Source: Bacillota bacterium
Lineage (GTDB): Bacteria > Bacillota > Sulfobacillia > Sulfobacillales > JAIMBI01
Direction of reading: 5' to 3'
Assembly: GCA_021846505.1 (NCBI GenBank)
Contig: JAJZWV010000025.1
Location: 1 to 47,255, forward strand
Length of the DNA stretch: 47,255 nucleotides
Below, piece after piece: positions 19,936 through 25,288 of the stretch. Both the position numbers and the translations under genes were made by a program. Position 1 is the first letter of the stretch; each line of letters starts with the position of its first letter. The notes under the pieces were generated by a model. It ran no database searches. It was not told the origin of the DNA and worked only from the letters and a program-made list of their open reading frames with translations.

Positions 19936-20316
19936 ATGGAGACCCCGCTGTACCGCCGCTGGCAGGCAGCCCATGCGGCCGCCGCCGAGTGCCTCACCGC
20001 ATGGCGCCCGGAGGTTGAGGGCATGCCCGCTGAGCTGTCGGAGGCTTTAGCGTTTCACCGCACCGTGGAGGAGCGTCTGTTTTTCCCCCGGCTGGCGCGC
20101 TACTTTGTGGGGGGTGGGCCGATCCCGCTCATGGAGGCCGCGCACGCTAAGCTGTCCCAGGGCCCGGGCCGCGATCCGGACGCGTGGCGCGACGCCTTTT
20201 TGCTCCATCTGCGCCAAGAGGACTTGGTGCTGCTGCCAATCGCCCGCCTGCGCTTCACCAGCCGCGAGTGGGCGGCCCTGGACGAAGAAGCGGCCGTGCT
20301 GTGGCCCAGTGGCTAG
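19936..20316 (+). CDS. Hemerythrin-like (HHE) domain protein
   Basis: 126 residues, one HHE domain. Candidate di-iron ligands fit the four-helix pattern: H13, H41-x3-E45, H70 and H91-x3-E95. Such proteins bind oxygen or nitric oxide or store iron in the cytoplasm. ATG 19936 has GGAGGTGA about 7 bases upstream; the open frame reaching back to 19681 adds only low-complexity sequence. It ends in a 4-base convergent overlap with the DUF89 gene. Confidence 0.72.
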   Translation: METPLYRRWQAAHAAAAECLTAWRPEVEGMPAELSEALAFHRTVEERLFFPRLARYFVGGGPIPLMEAAHAKLSQGPGRDPDAWRDAFLLHLRQEDLVLLPIARLRFTSREWAALDEEAAVLWPSG

Positions 20317-21179
20317 GGGGCTGGCGCCCGCCACCAAGCCACGGAGCTTTCGGGGGGCACCCCCAACAGCCGGGCCGACGGCGGGCACTTGGCGCGGTAT
20401 AGAAACAGCACCGGCCCCCGGCGCGGCTCGTGCGACAGCGTCTCCAGATGGGCCAGCCCCTTGGCCACCACCAGATCGGCGGCCTCCCACTCCGCCCACA
20501 CGGCGTCGGGCACCCGCCCGCGCATGGTGCCGTAGCGAGCCGCGCCGGTGTCCCAGACGGTGGCCACGCTGGCCAGCCCTAAGCGGTCCGCCTCGCGGCG
20601 CGTCACGTCATTGATGATCGGGCGGCCTTTGACCACGGCAGTGACGGCGAGGCCGCGCGCAGCCAGCGCCCGCATGCACTCGCGGTCAAGCACCGCCTCG
20701 CCCGCGTTGTCCAGCAGGTACAAGACGCGAGCGCCCGGGTGCTGGGCCACCCACGCGGCGGCCACCGCCCGATCATCGCGCGACAGCGGCTCTGCCGCCG
20801 CGGCGGTGAACTGCTGCCACGTTGGATCCACGCGGGTGTCCACGCCGGCATCAATGGAATTGCCGGCCACCGCCCATGCCAGCAGCTGAGCCAAATCGGG
20901 CTTTGGGCCGCGAGCGGTCTCGGCCCACCACGCCTCCATGCGGGCGTTGGCCTCATCTTTCACTGCGGCATAAGGGTCCTCGTCCTGCAGGCGGTCCTCC
21001 AGCGCCTGGTACATCCGCTCCAGGGCCACGCCGGGGTGGGGGGCACCGGCCATCGTGCCGGCGGCCTCCGCCAGCACGGGGCCGAAGTGCGGCCGCCACC
21101 CATCGGCGCTTGTCCGATGCGCCAGCGTGCGGGTCAGGAGCACGGCGGTGCAGGCTCCACATTCGACATCCACTTGCAT
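20313..21179 (-). CDS. DUF89/ARMT1-like metal-dependent phosphatase family protein
   Basis: 288 residues of the DUF89 family, archaeal AF1104-like type. Members are metal-dependent phosphatases proposed to remove damaged phosphometabolites. Seen: C-x2-C near the N-terminus (ECGACTAVL), LLDNAGEAVLDRECM with the metal-binding D-N-x-G-E, VVKGRPIINDVTRREA, and DLVVAKGLAHLETL. ATG 21179 has GGAGG 8 bases upstream. It lies 74 bases after btuD in the same direction and may be cotranscribed with the B12 importer. A 6-bp hairpin (CCCGCC/GGCGGG) sits in that gap near 21211-21230. True substrate unknown. Confidence 0.83.
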   Translation of the reverse strand: MQVDVECGACTAVLLTRTLAHRTSADGWRPHFGPVLAEAAGTMAGAPHPGVALERMYQALEDRLQDEDPYAAVKDEANARMEAWWAETARGPKPDLAQLLAWAVAGNSIDAGVDTRVDPTWQQFTAAAAEPLSRDDRAVAAAWVAQHPGARVLYLLDNAGEAVLDRECMRALAARGLAVTAVVKGRPIINDVTRREADRLGLASVATVWDTGAARYGTMRGRVPDAVWAEWEAADLVVAKGLAHLETLSHEPRRGPVLFLYRAKCPPSARLLGVPPESSVAWWRAPAP

Positions 21180-21253: not shown

Positions 21254-22033
21254 TCATCCCCGGTGGAACACCAGCGGCCGACCGGTCGAGGGGTGCGGCA
21301 TGACGCCTAACGGCGTGCGATAGACCCCTGACAGCTGCTCGGCCTGAAACACCTCATCGACTCCACCATACGCCTGAACCTGGCCGTCCGCCAGCAGCAG
21401 CACCGCCGAGCACGCTTGAGCCACGGTGGTCAAATCGTGGTGCGCCATCACCACCGTGTGGCCCGCCTGCACCAAAGAGCCCACCAACTCAAGAAATTGG
21501 CGGGCGTGCCCCGGATCCAGCGAAGCGGTTGGCTCGTCCAGCAGCAGCAGCGGCGCCCGCTGGGCCAGCGCCATCGCCAGGAGCACCCGCTGCTGCTCGC
21601 CTCCCGACAGCGTGCGAAACGAGCGGCTCCGGAGCTCCGCCGCATCGGTCTGCTCCAGGCACGCCTCGACCAGCTGCCGCTCGGCCGGCGCCAGCGGCAG
21701 CAGCCGATCGGCCCACGGCAGGTGGGACAGCCGTCCCAGCTCCACCACAGCCGACACGGGGAGGTCAAACGGCAGCACCAGCCGCTGCGGCACGACGGCG
21801 CGGCTGTGCGAGCGGGCTCCAGGCGATAGCGCCGCCAGCGGCTGGCCGTCGTACCACACGTGGCCGGCATCGGGTGGCTCTGTTCCCGCCATGAGGCGCA
21901 GCAGGGTGGTTTTGCCGGCCCCGTTGGGGCCGACAATCCCCAGCCACTCGCCGCGGCCCACGGCGACGGACAGCGGGCCCAGCTGAAACCCTGAGGGGTG
22001 GCGGCGGGAGACCCCCTCCACGCGGAGATTCAA
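21254..22033 (-). CDS. btuD: Vitamin B12 ABC importer, ATP-binding protein
   Basis: 259-residue ABC ATPase of the FecE/BtuD/HmuV group. Walker A is GPNGAGKTTL, the signature is LSGGEQQRVLLAMAL, Walker B is LLLLDEPTASLD, and the H-loop is VVMAHHDL. The TTG start overlaps the permease stop (TTGA, 22030-22033) with GGGGTGG just upstream. Last transporter gene of btuF-btuC-btuD; the cobalamin riboswitch upstream of btuF gives the substrate. Confidence 0.9.
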   Translation of the reverse strand: MNLRVEGVSRRHPSGFQLGPLSVAVGRGEWLGIVGPNGAGKTTLLRLMAGTEPPDAGHVWYDGQPLAALSPGARSHSRAVVPQRLVLPFDLPVSAVVELGRLSHLPWADRLLPLAPAERQLVEACLEQTDAAELRSRSFRTLSGGEQQRVLLAMALAQRAPLLLLDEPTASLDPGHARQFLELVGSLVQAGHTVVMAHHDLTTVAQACSAVLLLADGQVQAYGGVDEVFQAEQLSGVYRTPLGVMPHPSTGRPLVFHRG

Positions 22034-23007
22034 AACACCACCCCTTCACGCTGAGTGCGCACCAACAGCCACAGGAAGTAGGGTCCCCCCAGCACGGCCG
22101 TCAGCAACCCCACGGGCACGGCGCCCACCACCGGCACACTTTCCGAAACGGTGTCGGCCAGAATGAAGAACGCGGCTCCCCACATGACCGCCAGCGGCAG
22201 CAGCTGACGGTGATCGGCGGTCGTGAGGCGGCGCACCACGTGCGGGATGACCAGGCCGACAAACCCCACCAAGCCCGCCAGATATACGGCGGCCGCCGTC
22301 ATGACGCTCGCGAGCCCCAGCAGCAGCAGCTGCAGCCGGCTGACGTGCACGCCCAGGTGGCCGGCCGCCTCATCGCCCAGCAGCAGAGCGTTCATGGCGG
22401 GGGTCAGCGGGAACAGGAGGGCGGCGGCGGGCAGGATGAGGAGGGCGGCCAGGCCCACCGGCGCCCATGTCATGCCGTGGATGGAGCCGGCCTCCCAAGC
22501 AAACACGGTTTCGAGGCTGTGCTGGTTGAGCAACAGGATGAAGGTTTGCACCGCGGCCAGCATGATGCCCAGCGCGTAGCCCGCCAGAATGAGCGTCAGG
22601 GTGGCCACCTGTCCGCGGGTGCGGGCCACCGAATAGGTGGCGCCCACGGCGGCCAGCGCGCCCACGAAGGCGCCGGCTGGCACCAGGCTCCCAACCACCG
22701 TGGCAGTGAGGACGGCGCCGAGGCCAGCACCGGCCGACGCGCCGACGATGTAGGGGTCCGCCAGGGGGTTGCGGAGCAGCGCCTGCATCGCCACCCCCGA
22801 CCCGGCCAGCCCTGCGCCGACTAAGGCGGATGCCACGACGCGCGGCATGCGGATTTGCCACACGATGACACTGGCCAACCGCGAGCTAGGGTGGACCAGC
22901 ACCGACACGATGGCGGACAGGGGCAGAGGCGTGGGCCCATGCACCAGCCCCACGAGCACGCTGGCAGCCAGCGCCAGGCCGGCCAGCGCCAGCCGCCGGC
23001 CGGCCAC
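22030..23007 (-). CDS. btuC: Vitamin B12 ABC importer, FecCD/BtuC-type permease
   Basis: 325 residues with about ten transmembrane helices, as in BtuC/FecCD. Characteristic stretches: WQIRMPRVVASALVGAGLAGSGVAMQALLRNPLADPYIVGASAGAGLGA, and FVGLVIPHVVRRL with the conserved GL(V/I)-PH motif that contacts the ATPase. GTG start at 23007 directly abuts the btuF stop (TGAGTG), so translation is probably coupled. Family members move B12, haem or siderophores; riboswitch control supports B12. Confidence 0.9.
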   Translation of the reverse strand: MAGRRLALAGLALAASVLVGLVHGPTPLPLSAIVSVLVHPSSRLASVIVWQIRMPRVVASALVGAGLAGSGVAMQALLRNPLADPYIVGASAGAGLGAVLTATVVGSLVPAGAFVGALAAVGATYSVARTRGQVATLTLILAGYALGIMLAAVQTFILLLNQHSLETVFAWEAGSIHGMTWAPVGLAALLILPAAALLFPLTPAMNALLLGDEAAGHLGVHVSRLQLLLLGLASVMTAAAVYLAGLVGFVGLVIPHVVRRLTTADHRQLLPLAVMWGAAFFILADTVSESVPVVGAVPVGLLTAVLGGPYFLWLLVRTQREGVVF

Positions 23008-23946
23008 TCAGGACACCCAGTGCGGGTGCAGGATGTGGGCCAGCTCTTTCACCCCGCGGACCAGGCCGATGGACGGCTCGTCCAGATACGAGGAGTTGGG
23101 GGCCACCAGCACATGGTGGTCCTTGACGGCCCGCGTCGCCGAAAAGCCGGCCAGCTTGCTTTCTTGGGCGGCCGTGATGCCGGCGCCGCTGTCCACCACG
23201 ATATAGTCGGGATTGGCCCGCACCACCTGCTCAGCGGTCACTTGAGGCCACGGCGCCTTTACATAAGGTGCGAGGGCATTTTTGCCGCCTGCCAGGGTGA
23301 TGAAGTCGGTCAGAAAGGTGCCCCGGCCCGTGGTGTACAGATCACCCAAATCGTAAAACACCGTGGGGTGGCGGCGAATGTGCCGGAGCTTCGCCTCCAG
23401 AGATGCCAGCTGCGCTTTCAGATGCGCCACCAGCACCCGGGCGCGGGCGCTGGTGCCTGTCACGGTGCCCACCAGCGCGATGTCGTGGTACACCCCCTGA
23501 ATAGAGGTCGGGTTGAGCACCATCACCGGAATGTGCCGGCGTGTGAGCGTCTTCAAGTCACTGAGCGGCTCGTCGGTGATCACCAGCTGGGGGCGCCGAG
23601 CGACCACGGCTTCGGCCGATGGCTCGGGGAGGGCGTTGCCGATGGAGGGGAGGCCGTGCGCAGCTTTCGCCCAGGGGGCGGGCGTGTACTGCGGCACCGA
23701 GCTGTCCACGCCGACAATGTCGCGCCGAAGGCCCAGCGCATTCACAATCTCGAAGTTGGAGGGCGCGATGACGACGAGGCGGTGGACCGGTGCGGAAAAA
23801 GTGAGGTGCTGGCCGGCGTCGTCCACCACGTGGATAGGTCCGGAGGGCGCCGCCGAGCCTGCCGCGCCGCAGCCCGCAGCGGCAGCCAGCACAGCGGCGG
23901 CCATGAAGCCCGCGAGCCATCGGCCCGCACGAAAAGTTGGTGTCAT
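23008..23946 (-). CDS. btuF: Vitamin B12 ABC importer, lipoprotein substrate-binding protein
   Basis: 312 residues. A lipoprotein signal (VLAAAAGC, cysteine about residue 26) would tether it outside the membrane. The mature part is a type III binding protein: APVHRLVVIAPSNFEIVNALG, then VGVDSSVPQY, then PTVFYDLGDLYTTGRGTFLTDFITLAGGKN and PDYIVV. ATG 23946 has AAGGAG 9 to 10 bases upstream. First gene after the cobalamin riboswitch, with its promoter at 24178-24206. The riboswitch makes cobalamin the best substrate guess over iron siderophores. Confidence 0.9.
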   Translation of the reverse strand: MTPTFRAGRWLAGFMAAAVLAAAAGCGAAGSAAPSGPIHVVDDAGQHLTFSAPVHRLVVIAPSNFEIVNALGLRRDIVGVDSSVPQYTPAPWAKAAHGLPSIGNALPEPSAEAVVARRPQLVITDEPLSDLKTLTRRHIPVMVLNPTSIQGVYHDIALVGTVTGTSARARVLVAHLKAQLASLEAKLRHIRRHPTVFYDLGDLYTTGRGTFLTDFITLAGGKNALAPYVKAPWPQVTAEQVVRANPDYIVVDSGAGITAAQESKLAGFSATRAVKDHHVLVAPNSSYLDEPSIGLVRGVKELAHILHPHWVS

Positions 23947-24019
23947 TGGTCGGAGTCTCCTTATGGCAGGTGACAGCCGACGCCAGCGCGGCGACGTCCT
24001 GCCACCCGCAGGATTCGCC

Positions 24020-24160
24020 CATTCGCCGGGTAGGTCTCCTGGCTGCCGGTTCTTCGCCGTGTGACGTGCCTTCCCGCGTGAGCAGTGGCTGGCGTCGGCT
24101 CCCCGGTGACAGTGGCGGGTGCCGCTCAGGATGTTCGCCTGATTCCCTGTTATGCACCCA
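24020..24160 (-). promoter_or_regulatory. Cobalamin riboswitch
   Basis: On the minus strand the order of conserved blocks is as in the cobalamin family: GGGAATCAGGCGAA, then CACCCGCCACTGT, then GGGGAGCC, then GCCAGCCACTG, then GCGGGAAGGC, and finally the B12 box AGCCAGGAGACCTACC (24029-24044; consensus ends CTGCC). It sits in the leader of btuFCD, which should be turned off when B12 is abundant. A 13-nt segment of the aptamer (24088-24100) is exactly complementary to 23975-23987 just before btuF. Boundaries are approximate. Confidence 0.93.
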
Positions 24161-24177
24161 ACGATTAGGTCAGCTCC

Positions 24178-24206
24178 AGTGTAAGCCGTGCGCAGGGCGC
24201 CGGCAA
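24178..24206 (-). promoter_or_regulatory. Probable promoter of the B12 uptake operon
   Basis: Minus strand: TTGCCG (24201-24206), 17-base spacer, TACACT (24178-24183). Each hexamer matches consensus at 4 of 6. The start of transcription would fall just before the riboswitch. Confidence 0.45.
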
Positions 24207-24309
24207 GCCGAAGCCGCCGAGCGAATCGATGGCGGATGTCTGCGGGACGAGGGGCCCTTCATCCGCCGGGAAGTCGTTGGCGAAGGGATGGGGCTGTCTG
24301 GCTGACGGG

Positions 24310-24664
24310 ATGGCGGACGGGGATGAGGCGAAGCGCTGGCTGTTGCAAGGGGCCATGGACCTCGAGACGGCGAGGGCAACGTGGACACGCATCCCTATGC
24401 CGCGTGCTTCTTCAGCCAGCAGGCCGCCGAACAGGCGACCAAGGCTTTTCCCTCGCGCAGGCCGGACACTGCCAGCGCCCCCACGACATTTTGGGCACGC
24501 TCAAGGCGTCCCCCGCCCTTCAGCAGGTCATTCAGCTTCGTGACGCGTCGCTACAGGATGCCTTCGACACCGAGCCAGCGCGGGAAGCGGTTCCCAGTGC
24601 CTCCGGCATCCTGGCCGCGTGCGGCCAGCTTATTGCCGCCCTGGAGGCCGCCGCCGGGCCATAG
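24310..24664 (+). pseudogene. HEPN-domain protein, frameshifted remnant
   Basis: Three frames together read as one HEPN protein. MADGDEAKRWLLQGAMDLETA starts at 24310 in one frame. DTHPYAACFFSQQAAEQATKAF follows from about 24382 in a second. FSLAQAGHCQRPHDILGTLKAS continues to the stop at 24664 in a third. HEPN proteins share an opening K-x-W-L-x-x-A-x-x-D-L, a central A-C-F-x-x-Q-x-A-E-x-A-x-K-A and a later H-D-L, all visible here. Two shifts (near 24378 and 24450) break it. HEPN proteins are usually RNases or toxins paired with an MNT nucleotidyltransferase; no partner is adjacent. It is divergent from btuF. Confidence 0.65.
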
Positions 24665-24679
24665 GCCTTTCGGTGGGTG

Positions 24680-25288
24680 TCAGATGCGCCCCGCCTCCGC
24701 CAGCGTGATGCGCCAGCCCCGCGGGCTGGCGGTGAGCAGCAGCTGACCCAAGTTGGGCACGTCGATGCGCCGAGACTGGGGGCCGGACACCCCCAAGAGA
24801 TGAACCATGACGCCCTTTAGGCAGTCAGAGTGGGTGCTGGCCACCACCAATTCCCCCGGCGCACGCGGCAGGGCGTCCAGCGCGGCCATCACCCGCTGCC
24901 CTACTTCACTGATGCGCTCTCCCCGCGGCGGGGGGCTGGCTTCCGGATCGCGGCGCCAGGCGCGCCAGGCCTCGGGGTCGTCGCGGGCCAGCTCGACCAA
25001 GGGGTGGCCGTCCCAGCGGCCCATGTCCAGCTCGGCCAATCCGGGCACGTCCGACACGGACAGCCCGCGCGCCTCCGCCAGTGGGATGACGGTTTCGCGG
25101 GCGCGGCGCAGGGGACTCGACACCACCGCGGCAATGGGCACACCGGCTAGGTCGGACACCAGGGAGCGCGCCTGCTCCCAGCCGAGCGCCGTGAGGCCTG
25201 GGTCCCAGCGGCGAAAGGCGAAACGGCCCAGCGCGTTGGCTTCGCTGTGGCCGTGGCGGACCATCAAGATGCGTGCGAGCTCGGTCAC
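24680..25288 (-). CDS. Histidine phosphatase (phosphoglycerate-mutase-like)
   Basis: 202 residues of the histidine phosphatase superfamily. The catalytic RHG is in LMVRHGHSEANALGR; SSPLRRARETVIPLA follows, then AELDMGRWDGHP, and the second histidine is in VASTHSDCLKGVMVHLLG. The MSMEG_4193-like pattern fits a broad phosphatase rather than a true mutase. GTG 25288 is chosen (GGGGAG about 6 bases upstream, homology begins there); an upstream open frame to 25480 has no homology. Divergent from the next gene. Confidence 0.87.
   Translation of the reverse strand: MTELARILMVRHGHSEANALGRFAFRRWDPGLTALGWEQARSLVSDLAGVPIAAVVSSPLRRARETVIPLAEARGLSVSDVPGLAELDMGRWDGHPLVELARDDPEAWRAWRRDPEASPPPRGERISEVGQRVMAALDALPRAPGELVVASTHSDCLKGVMVHLLGVSGPQSRRIDVPNLGQLLLTASPRGWRITLAEAGRI

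Follow-up and report, generated by a model that had tools for sequence, protein, structure and literature searches.

A cobalamin riboswitch upstream of btuFCD-like genes: P13/anti-SD exchange as the probable translational switch, with an exact 13-nt complement as a candidate accessory or by-product

Introduction

Which of the helices open to a cobalamin riboswitch leader would turn corrinoid binding into a change in expression? Cobalamin riboswitches are the most widespread riboswitch class in bacteria. The route by which a bound corrinoid acts on the expression platform has been described as unknown for most of them, and as likely to be diverse (PMC10653944). The question arises at a locus of a Bacillota genome, within a stretch of 47,255 nucleotides that was analysed as a whole (hereafter the window). 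There, a riboswitch aptamer upstream of a btuF-like gene shares an exact complementarity of 13 bases with the leader downstream of it, and an earlier reading made from the letters of this DNA (the sequence-only reading) proposed the resulting helix as a ligand-dependent switch. The analysis reported here favours, with a probability of about 0.58, a repressing translational cobalamin riboswitch before btuFCD that switches by an exchange between P13 and the anti-SD strand.

The riboswitch and its operon

The cobalamin riboswitch placed before btuF by the sequence-only reading was recovered on the minus strand (24012-24176) with the RF00174 covariance model, covered from 1 to 189 at 85.4 bits, well over the gathering score of 31.5. 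The B12 box AGCCAGGAGACC is present (as AGCCAGGAGACCUACC in the Rfam alignment), the aptamer lies upstream of B12-related genes (btuF/btuC/btuD-like), and an L5-L13 complementarity is accompanied by a P13 hairpin immediately 3' of the aptamer, CACCC of L5 facing GGGUG in UCCUGC-GGGUG-GCAGGA. The pairs of the aptamer were set by hand from the sequence, guided by the Rfam match. Judged by these features, the leader is an ordinary cobalamin riboswitch, for which corrinoid binding and a structural change are predicted.

On the minus strand, 65 nt separate the 3' end of the aptamer from the btuF ATG (23946), and the btuC- and btuD-like genes follow (Table 1). Because the Pfam families of these products also cover other transporters, the substrate was read from the riboswitch and the gene order, which point to vitamin-B12 uptake as the role of the operon. 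Downstream of btuD, a gene with an ARMT1-like damage-control phosphatase domain (20313-21179, minus strand; Pfam E 2.8e-39) is an unexpected neighbour for such an operon. On the plus strand, three overlapping frames at 24188-24746 are jointly HEPN-type-like, with at least two frameshifts; one of them has a weak HEPN Pfam match (E 0.11, below the cut-off), and together they may be the remains of a gene that diverges from the riboswitch.

A genome search detected this single cobalamin riboswitch in the window's genome. Three other species of the genus (L033, L035 and L037) carry a second one, also before a btuF-like gene, which is 51% identical to the window's and differs in its platform (CCUCUGCCC against GGGGAGAGG); no copy of it was found in the window's genome assembly. 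Those relatives that bear names are Bacillota MAGs and Sulfobacillus.

Table 1. Features of the operon and its leader, in window positions
Feature	Positions	Strand	Basis
Cobalamin riboswitch aptamer (RF00174)	24012-24176	-	cmscan 85.4 bits, E 9.1e-20, full model 1-189
btuF-like substrate-binding protein (Peripla_BP_2)	23008-23946	-	Pfam E 6e-24
btuC-like permease (FecCD)	22030-23007	-	Pfam E 4e-81
btuD-like ATPase (ABC_tran)	21254-22033	-	Pfam E 3.4e-30
Shine-Dalgarno AAGGAG	23957-23962	-	sequence; 10 nt upstream of ATG 23946
P5/L5 GGCACCCGCC; loop CACCCG predicted able to kiss L13	24114-24123	-	sequence; identical in four genus members
P8/P9 peripheral domain of the aptamer	24056-24099	-	pairing hand-drawn from sequence and Rfam match
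Segment A AGCCGACGCCAGC	24088-24100	-	sequence; exact complement of A'
Segment A' GCUGGCGUCGGCU	23975-23987	-	sequence; exact complement of A
Extended hairpin P13 (GGCGA/UCGCC outside UCCUGC/GCAGGA), presents L13	23990-24019	-	platform folds with L13 blocked
L13 loop GGGUG, complementary to L5 CACCC	24003-24007	-	sequence
Segment X GCGGGUGGCAG (P13 arm, L13, other arm), proposed anti-anti-SD strand	23999-24009	-	pairs with X'
Segment X' CUGUCACCUGC, anti-SD strand; can pair with either X or SD	23966-23976	-	sequence and folds
Sequestering hairpin GUCGG-GUC-CCU / AGG-GAC-CCGAC over the Shine-Dalgarno	23949-23981	-	forms when L13 is blocked

A 13-nt complement between aptamer and leader

The exact complementarity between 24088-24100 and 23975-23987 is real: on the minus strand, AGCCGACGCCAGC and GCUGGCGUCGGCU match over all 13 bases, segment A' being placed 29-41 nt before the ATG of btuF, in line with the claimed distance of about 30 to 40 bases. 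Segment A is inside the aptamer, as also claimed, though it overlaps the GGGGAGCC and CCACTG blocks instead of lying cleanly between them, sharing the last four bases of the former and reaching one base into the latter's C run. Exact complements between the aptamer (165 nt) and the remaining 66 nt of the leader stayed below 13 in all 5000 dinucleotide shuffles, the longest being 12, attained once. In a rougher comparison with the GC-rich window itself, 13 was reached by 7 of 1566 neighbouring stretches of the same size taken from other parts of it.

The same leader occurs in three other species of the genus (L032, L034 and L036), with 92% identity; the genus comparison thus covers four close species, the window's included, and counts as one origin or event. 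In all four, the longest match between aptamer and leader lies at the same place (13, 10, 9 and 10 bases). Within the order, 22 further btuF leaders from more distant relatives were searched; the match was absent there, the longest being of 8 or fewer bases. It is thus, by comparison of these sequences, a feature of the genus that predates the window's species, though a drifting one, with the four close sequences standing for one event. The continuous helix A:A', 13 pairs long in the window, falls to 9 in L034 and to 10 plus a G-U in both L032 and L036 (a range of 9-11 in the homologues); L034 has one broken pair, and a base of segment A is absent from the three species other than the window's. 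Compensatory changes in homologues, which the sequence-only reading had named as a check and whose lack it had accepted as a refutation, were not found: there is no two-sided change in the 13-nt pair among the four sequences, a count of little power because the sequences are so few and so close.

Used as a switch, the helix would work as follows. Without B12, the 5' strand of P8/P9 would quit the aptamer, pair over 13 bases with the leader and strip the sequestering stem of GUCGG, which would let the ribosome enter; B12 would stabilise P8/P9 and thereby block this rearrangement. The rarity of the complement in shuffles and its shared position in the genus speak for such a switch, as does the strand logic: GUCGG is common to the 13-bp helix and the sequestering stem, so these two exclude each other, and the helix is likewise exclusive with P8/P9, whose 5' strand holds most of segment A. 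Folding was modelled with nearest-neighbour secondary-structure methods, run without tertiary contacts or ligand. The predicted-fold check also named earlier came out in favour of the helix in the window, where it forms in the unconstrained fold with P ~0.99, and against it in L032, L034 and L036 (P 0.00, 0.00 and 0.11), whose unconstrained folds form the X:X' helix discussed below.

Beside its near absence from the homologues' folds, the shortening and the broken pair, the models raise further points against the 13-bp helix as the switch. In the window, the Shine-Dalgarno is 0.27 unpaired with the helix formed, against 0.25 in the OFF model, and it stays at 0.26-0.27 across models of the 13-bp state; in the window it is still mostly paired because a 6-bp hairpin, GUCACCU/AGGAGAC, remains. 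The helix also requires P8/P9 to open. This domain, modelled at -15.1 kcal/mol, keeps 14 of 14 pairs in the four species, yet is invariant. The 5' strand of P8/P9, where segment A sits, belongs to the P8-P10-P11 domain, described as an optional element of the class (PMC2258182), which makes it a poor site for ligand action. We regard it as unlikely that the 13-bp helix is the switch.

P13 and the anti-SD strand

A second pairing in the same leader is better kept. The X:X' helix between the P13/L13 strand and the anti-SD strand has 11-12 pairs in four of the four genus species, with an unbroken core of 11; the four sequences differ by one one-sided change (G-U to G-C) and by no two-sided change. 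In shuffled leaders, X:X' is met with a chance of 0.004-0.023 over the four species (0.013 in the window), and in the window chance alone would produce the 13-bp helix less often than X:X' (<1/5000 vs 0.013). P13 has 9 of 11 pairs invariant, and in the sequestering hairpin one pair is changed on both sides, from U-A in three species to C-G in L036. This GUCGG..CCGAC hairpin is predicted to cover the Shine-Dalgarno and to be exclusive with both X:X' and A:A'. X:X' itself leaves the aptamer folded and excludes the L5-L13 kissing loop.

These pairings suggest a simple exchange, of which we infer the ligand dependence and the direction of control. With B12 bound, L5 (CACCCG) would kiss L13 (CGGGUG) and hold the hairpin P13, an interaction proposed here from loop complementarity and established for the class (PMC10653944). 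The anti-SD strand CUGUCACCU would then be free and, with the GUCGG/CCGAC stem, would fold back on the Shine-Dalgarno (OFF). In the absence of B12, GCGGGUGGCAG (L13 with the P13 arms) would instead pair with CUGUCACCUGC, removing the anti-SD strand and releasing the Shine-Dalgarno (ON). The 13-bp helix would be a second, mutually exclusive option, which in the window's species may either support the ligand-free state or be no more than a by-product. The sequence-only reading had mentioned neither the kissing loop nor the P13/anti-SD exchange, which account for ligand control more simply than the 13-bp helix does.

Model energies are consistent with this exchange. With the aptamer held, passing from OFF (P13 plus the sequestering hairpin) to X:X' is downhill in all four species, by 2.3 to 8.5 kcal/mol, and the modelled refolding barrier is 13-21 kcal/mol, against 28-34 for passing from OFF to the 13-bp helix. 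The Shine-Dalgarno region opens on going to X:X' in three of the four species, from 0.25 to 0.44-0.57; L036 is the exception, with a modelled accessibility that falls from 0.62 to 0.20.

A variant in which the core need not be lost together with P8/P9 also has to be weighed. Without B12, the leader's near-perfect mimic of the P8/P9 3' strand might invade the aptamer's periphery, perhaps through a pseudoknot sparing the core, and the switching strand would then come from the peripheral helix rather than from P13. In an additive estimate made before any pseudoknot penalty, the 13-bp helix with an intact core beats X:X' by ~7 kcal/mol in the window and is level with it in L036, but is disfavoured in L032 and L034. 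We consider this invasion distinctly unlikely.

At the other extreme, the complement may have no function, its strands being fixed by P8/P9 on one side and by the sequestering stem and the P13/anti-SD hairpin on the other, and complementary by coincidence in one ancestral lineage. Two elements, the sequestering stem and the X:X' hairpin's apical stem, explain nearly all conserved A' bases, the four sequences (~92% identical) represent one origin, and the helix drifts in length from 9 to 13 pairs. A 13/13 match is improbable by shuffling, however, and an outlier among 26 leaders; as the explanation of this locus, coincidence appears improbable, although it is compatible with a P13/anti-SD switch. 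Because other helices constrain both of its strands (P8/P9 the one, the sequestering and P13/anti-SD hairpins the other), the 13-bp helix is best read as a genus-specific accessory or by-product. What stands of the switch first proposed is that its helix folds in the window (P ~0.99); X:X' is more likely than A:A' to turn translation on and off.

Related leaders and the level of control

A wider set of 26 btuF leaders of the order agrees with a shared principle in which L13 would swap partners between L5 and the anti-SD strand, although this is an indirect test on related loci. Blocking L13, to imitate a kissing loop, lowered modelled Shine-Dalgarno accessibility by more than 0.02 in 15 leaders and raised it in 1 (Wilcoxon P ~5e-6, and ~3e-6 relative to blocking other sites, values that are optimistic because the loci are related). 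The window's isolated platform was unaffected (0.34 both ways). With L13 free, several sister-family leaders are predicted to fold into a long, imperfectly paired hairpin that joins GGGU of L13 to CGCC or CACC in the anti-SD strand; in L067 one pair of this hairpin is changed on both sides, from G-C to A-U. In the neighbouring genus and in the second riboswitch of the window's genus, the match between L13 and the anti-SD strand amounts to 8-9 pairs, not significant alone.

Sister-family btuF leaders, among them L045, L049 and L053 (alignment A2, columns 4-44), have an extended P13, GGGCGAGCCUG...CGGGCGCCGCCU, followed by a U-rich run, so that the hairpin could itself be an intrinsic terminator there; a strict-pattern terminator scan of L045 called nothing. 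These U-runs lend some colour to transcriptional control, whether by Rho acting on an exposed leader or after stalled translation, or by an intrinsic terminator. The window's genus has no U-run after P13, though, and the absence of a T-run after the helix, noted earlier, was borne out: the terminator scan found neither T-run nor intrinsic terminator in the window leader, and the promoter scan likewise returned nothing. Transcriptional control is thus highly improbable here, and ribosome access, an output already suggested by the sequence-only reading, is likely.

Comparison with known riboswitches

Proposed models of corrinoid riboswitches have aptamer bases forming an alternative structure (cited in PMC10653944). 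The 13-bp helix would match them in that an aptamer strand pairs with the leader, and would depart from them in employing the peripheral P8/P9 strand; a literature search, which is not proof of absence, returned no report of that strand in such a role. Since the two exclusive ON helices of this leader differ in the switching strand, a few mutants could separate them. Otherwise, the leader adds one member to the cobalamin riboswitches.

The P13/anti-SD exchange has closer counterparts. Like the adenosylcobalamin riboswitch of E. coli btuB, it would act on a B12 uptake gene, sequester the Shine-Dalgarno upon binding and involve a P13 pseudoknot, and the ON state proposed for the window would, as in btuB, be made by a helix of the anti-SD with an anti-anti-SD strand (PMC11162775). 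Unlike btuB, P13/L13 itself is predicted to be the anti-anti-SD strand, and the window has the additional 13-nt complement to P8/P9. The corrinoid riboswitch of Priestia megaterium metE offers the other half of the comparison: there the kissing loop stabilises P13, and without ligand the 3' side of P13 pairs downstream as an anti-structure (PMC10653944), much as is proposed here, while metE output passes through an intrinsic terminator and that of the window, which has none, would pass through ribosome access.
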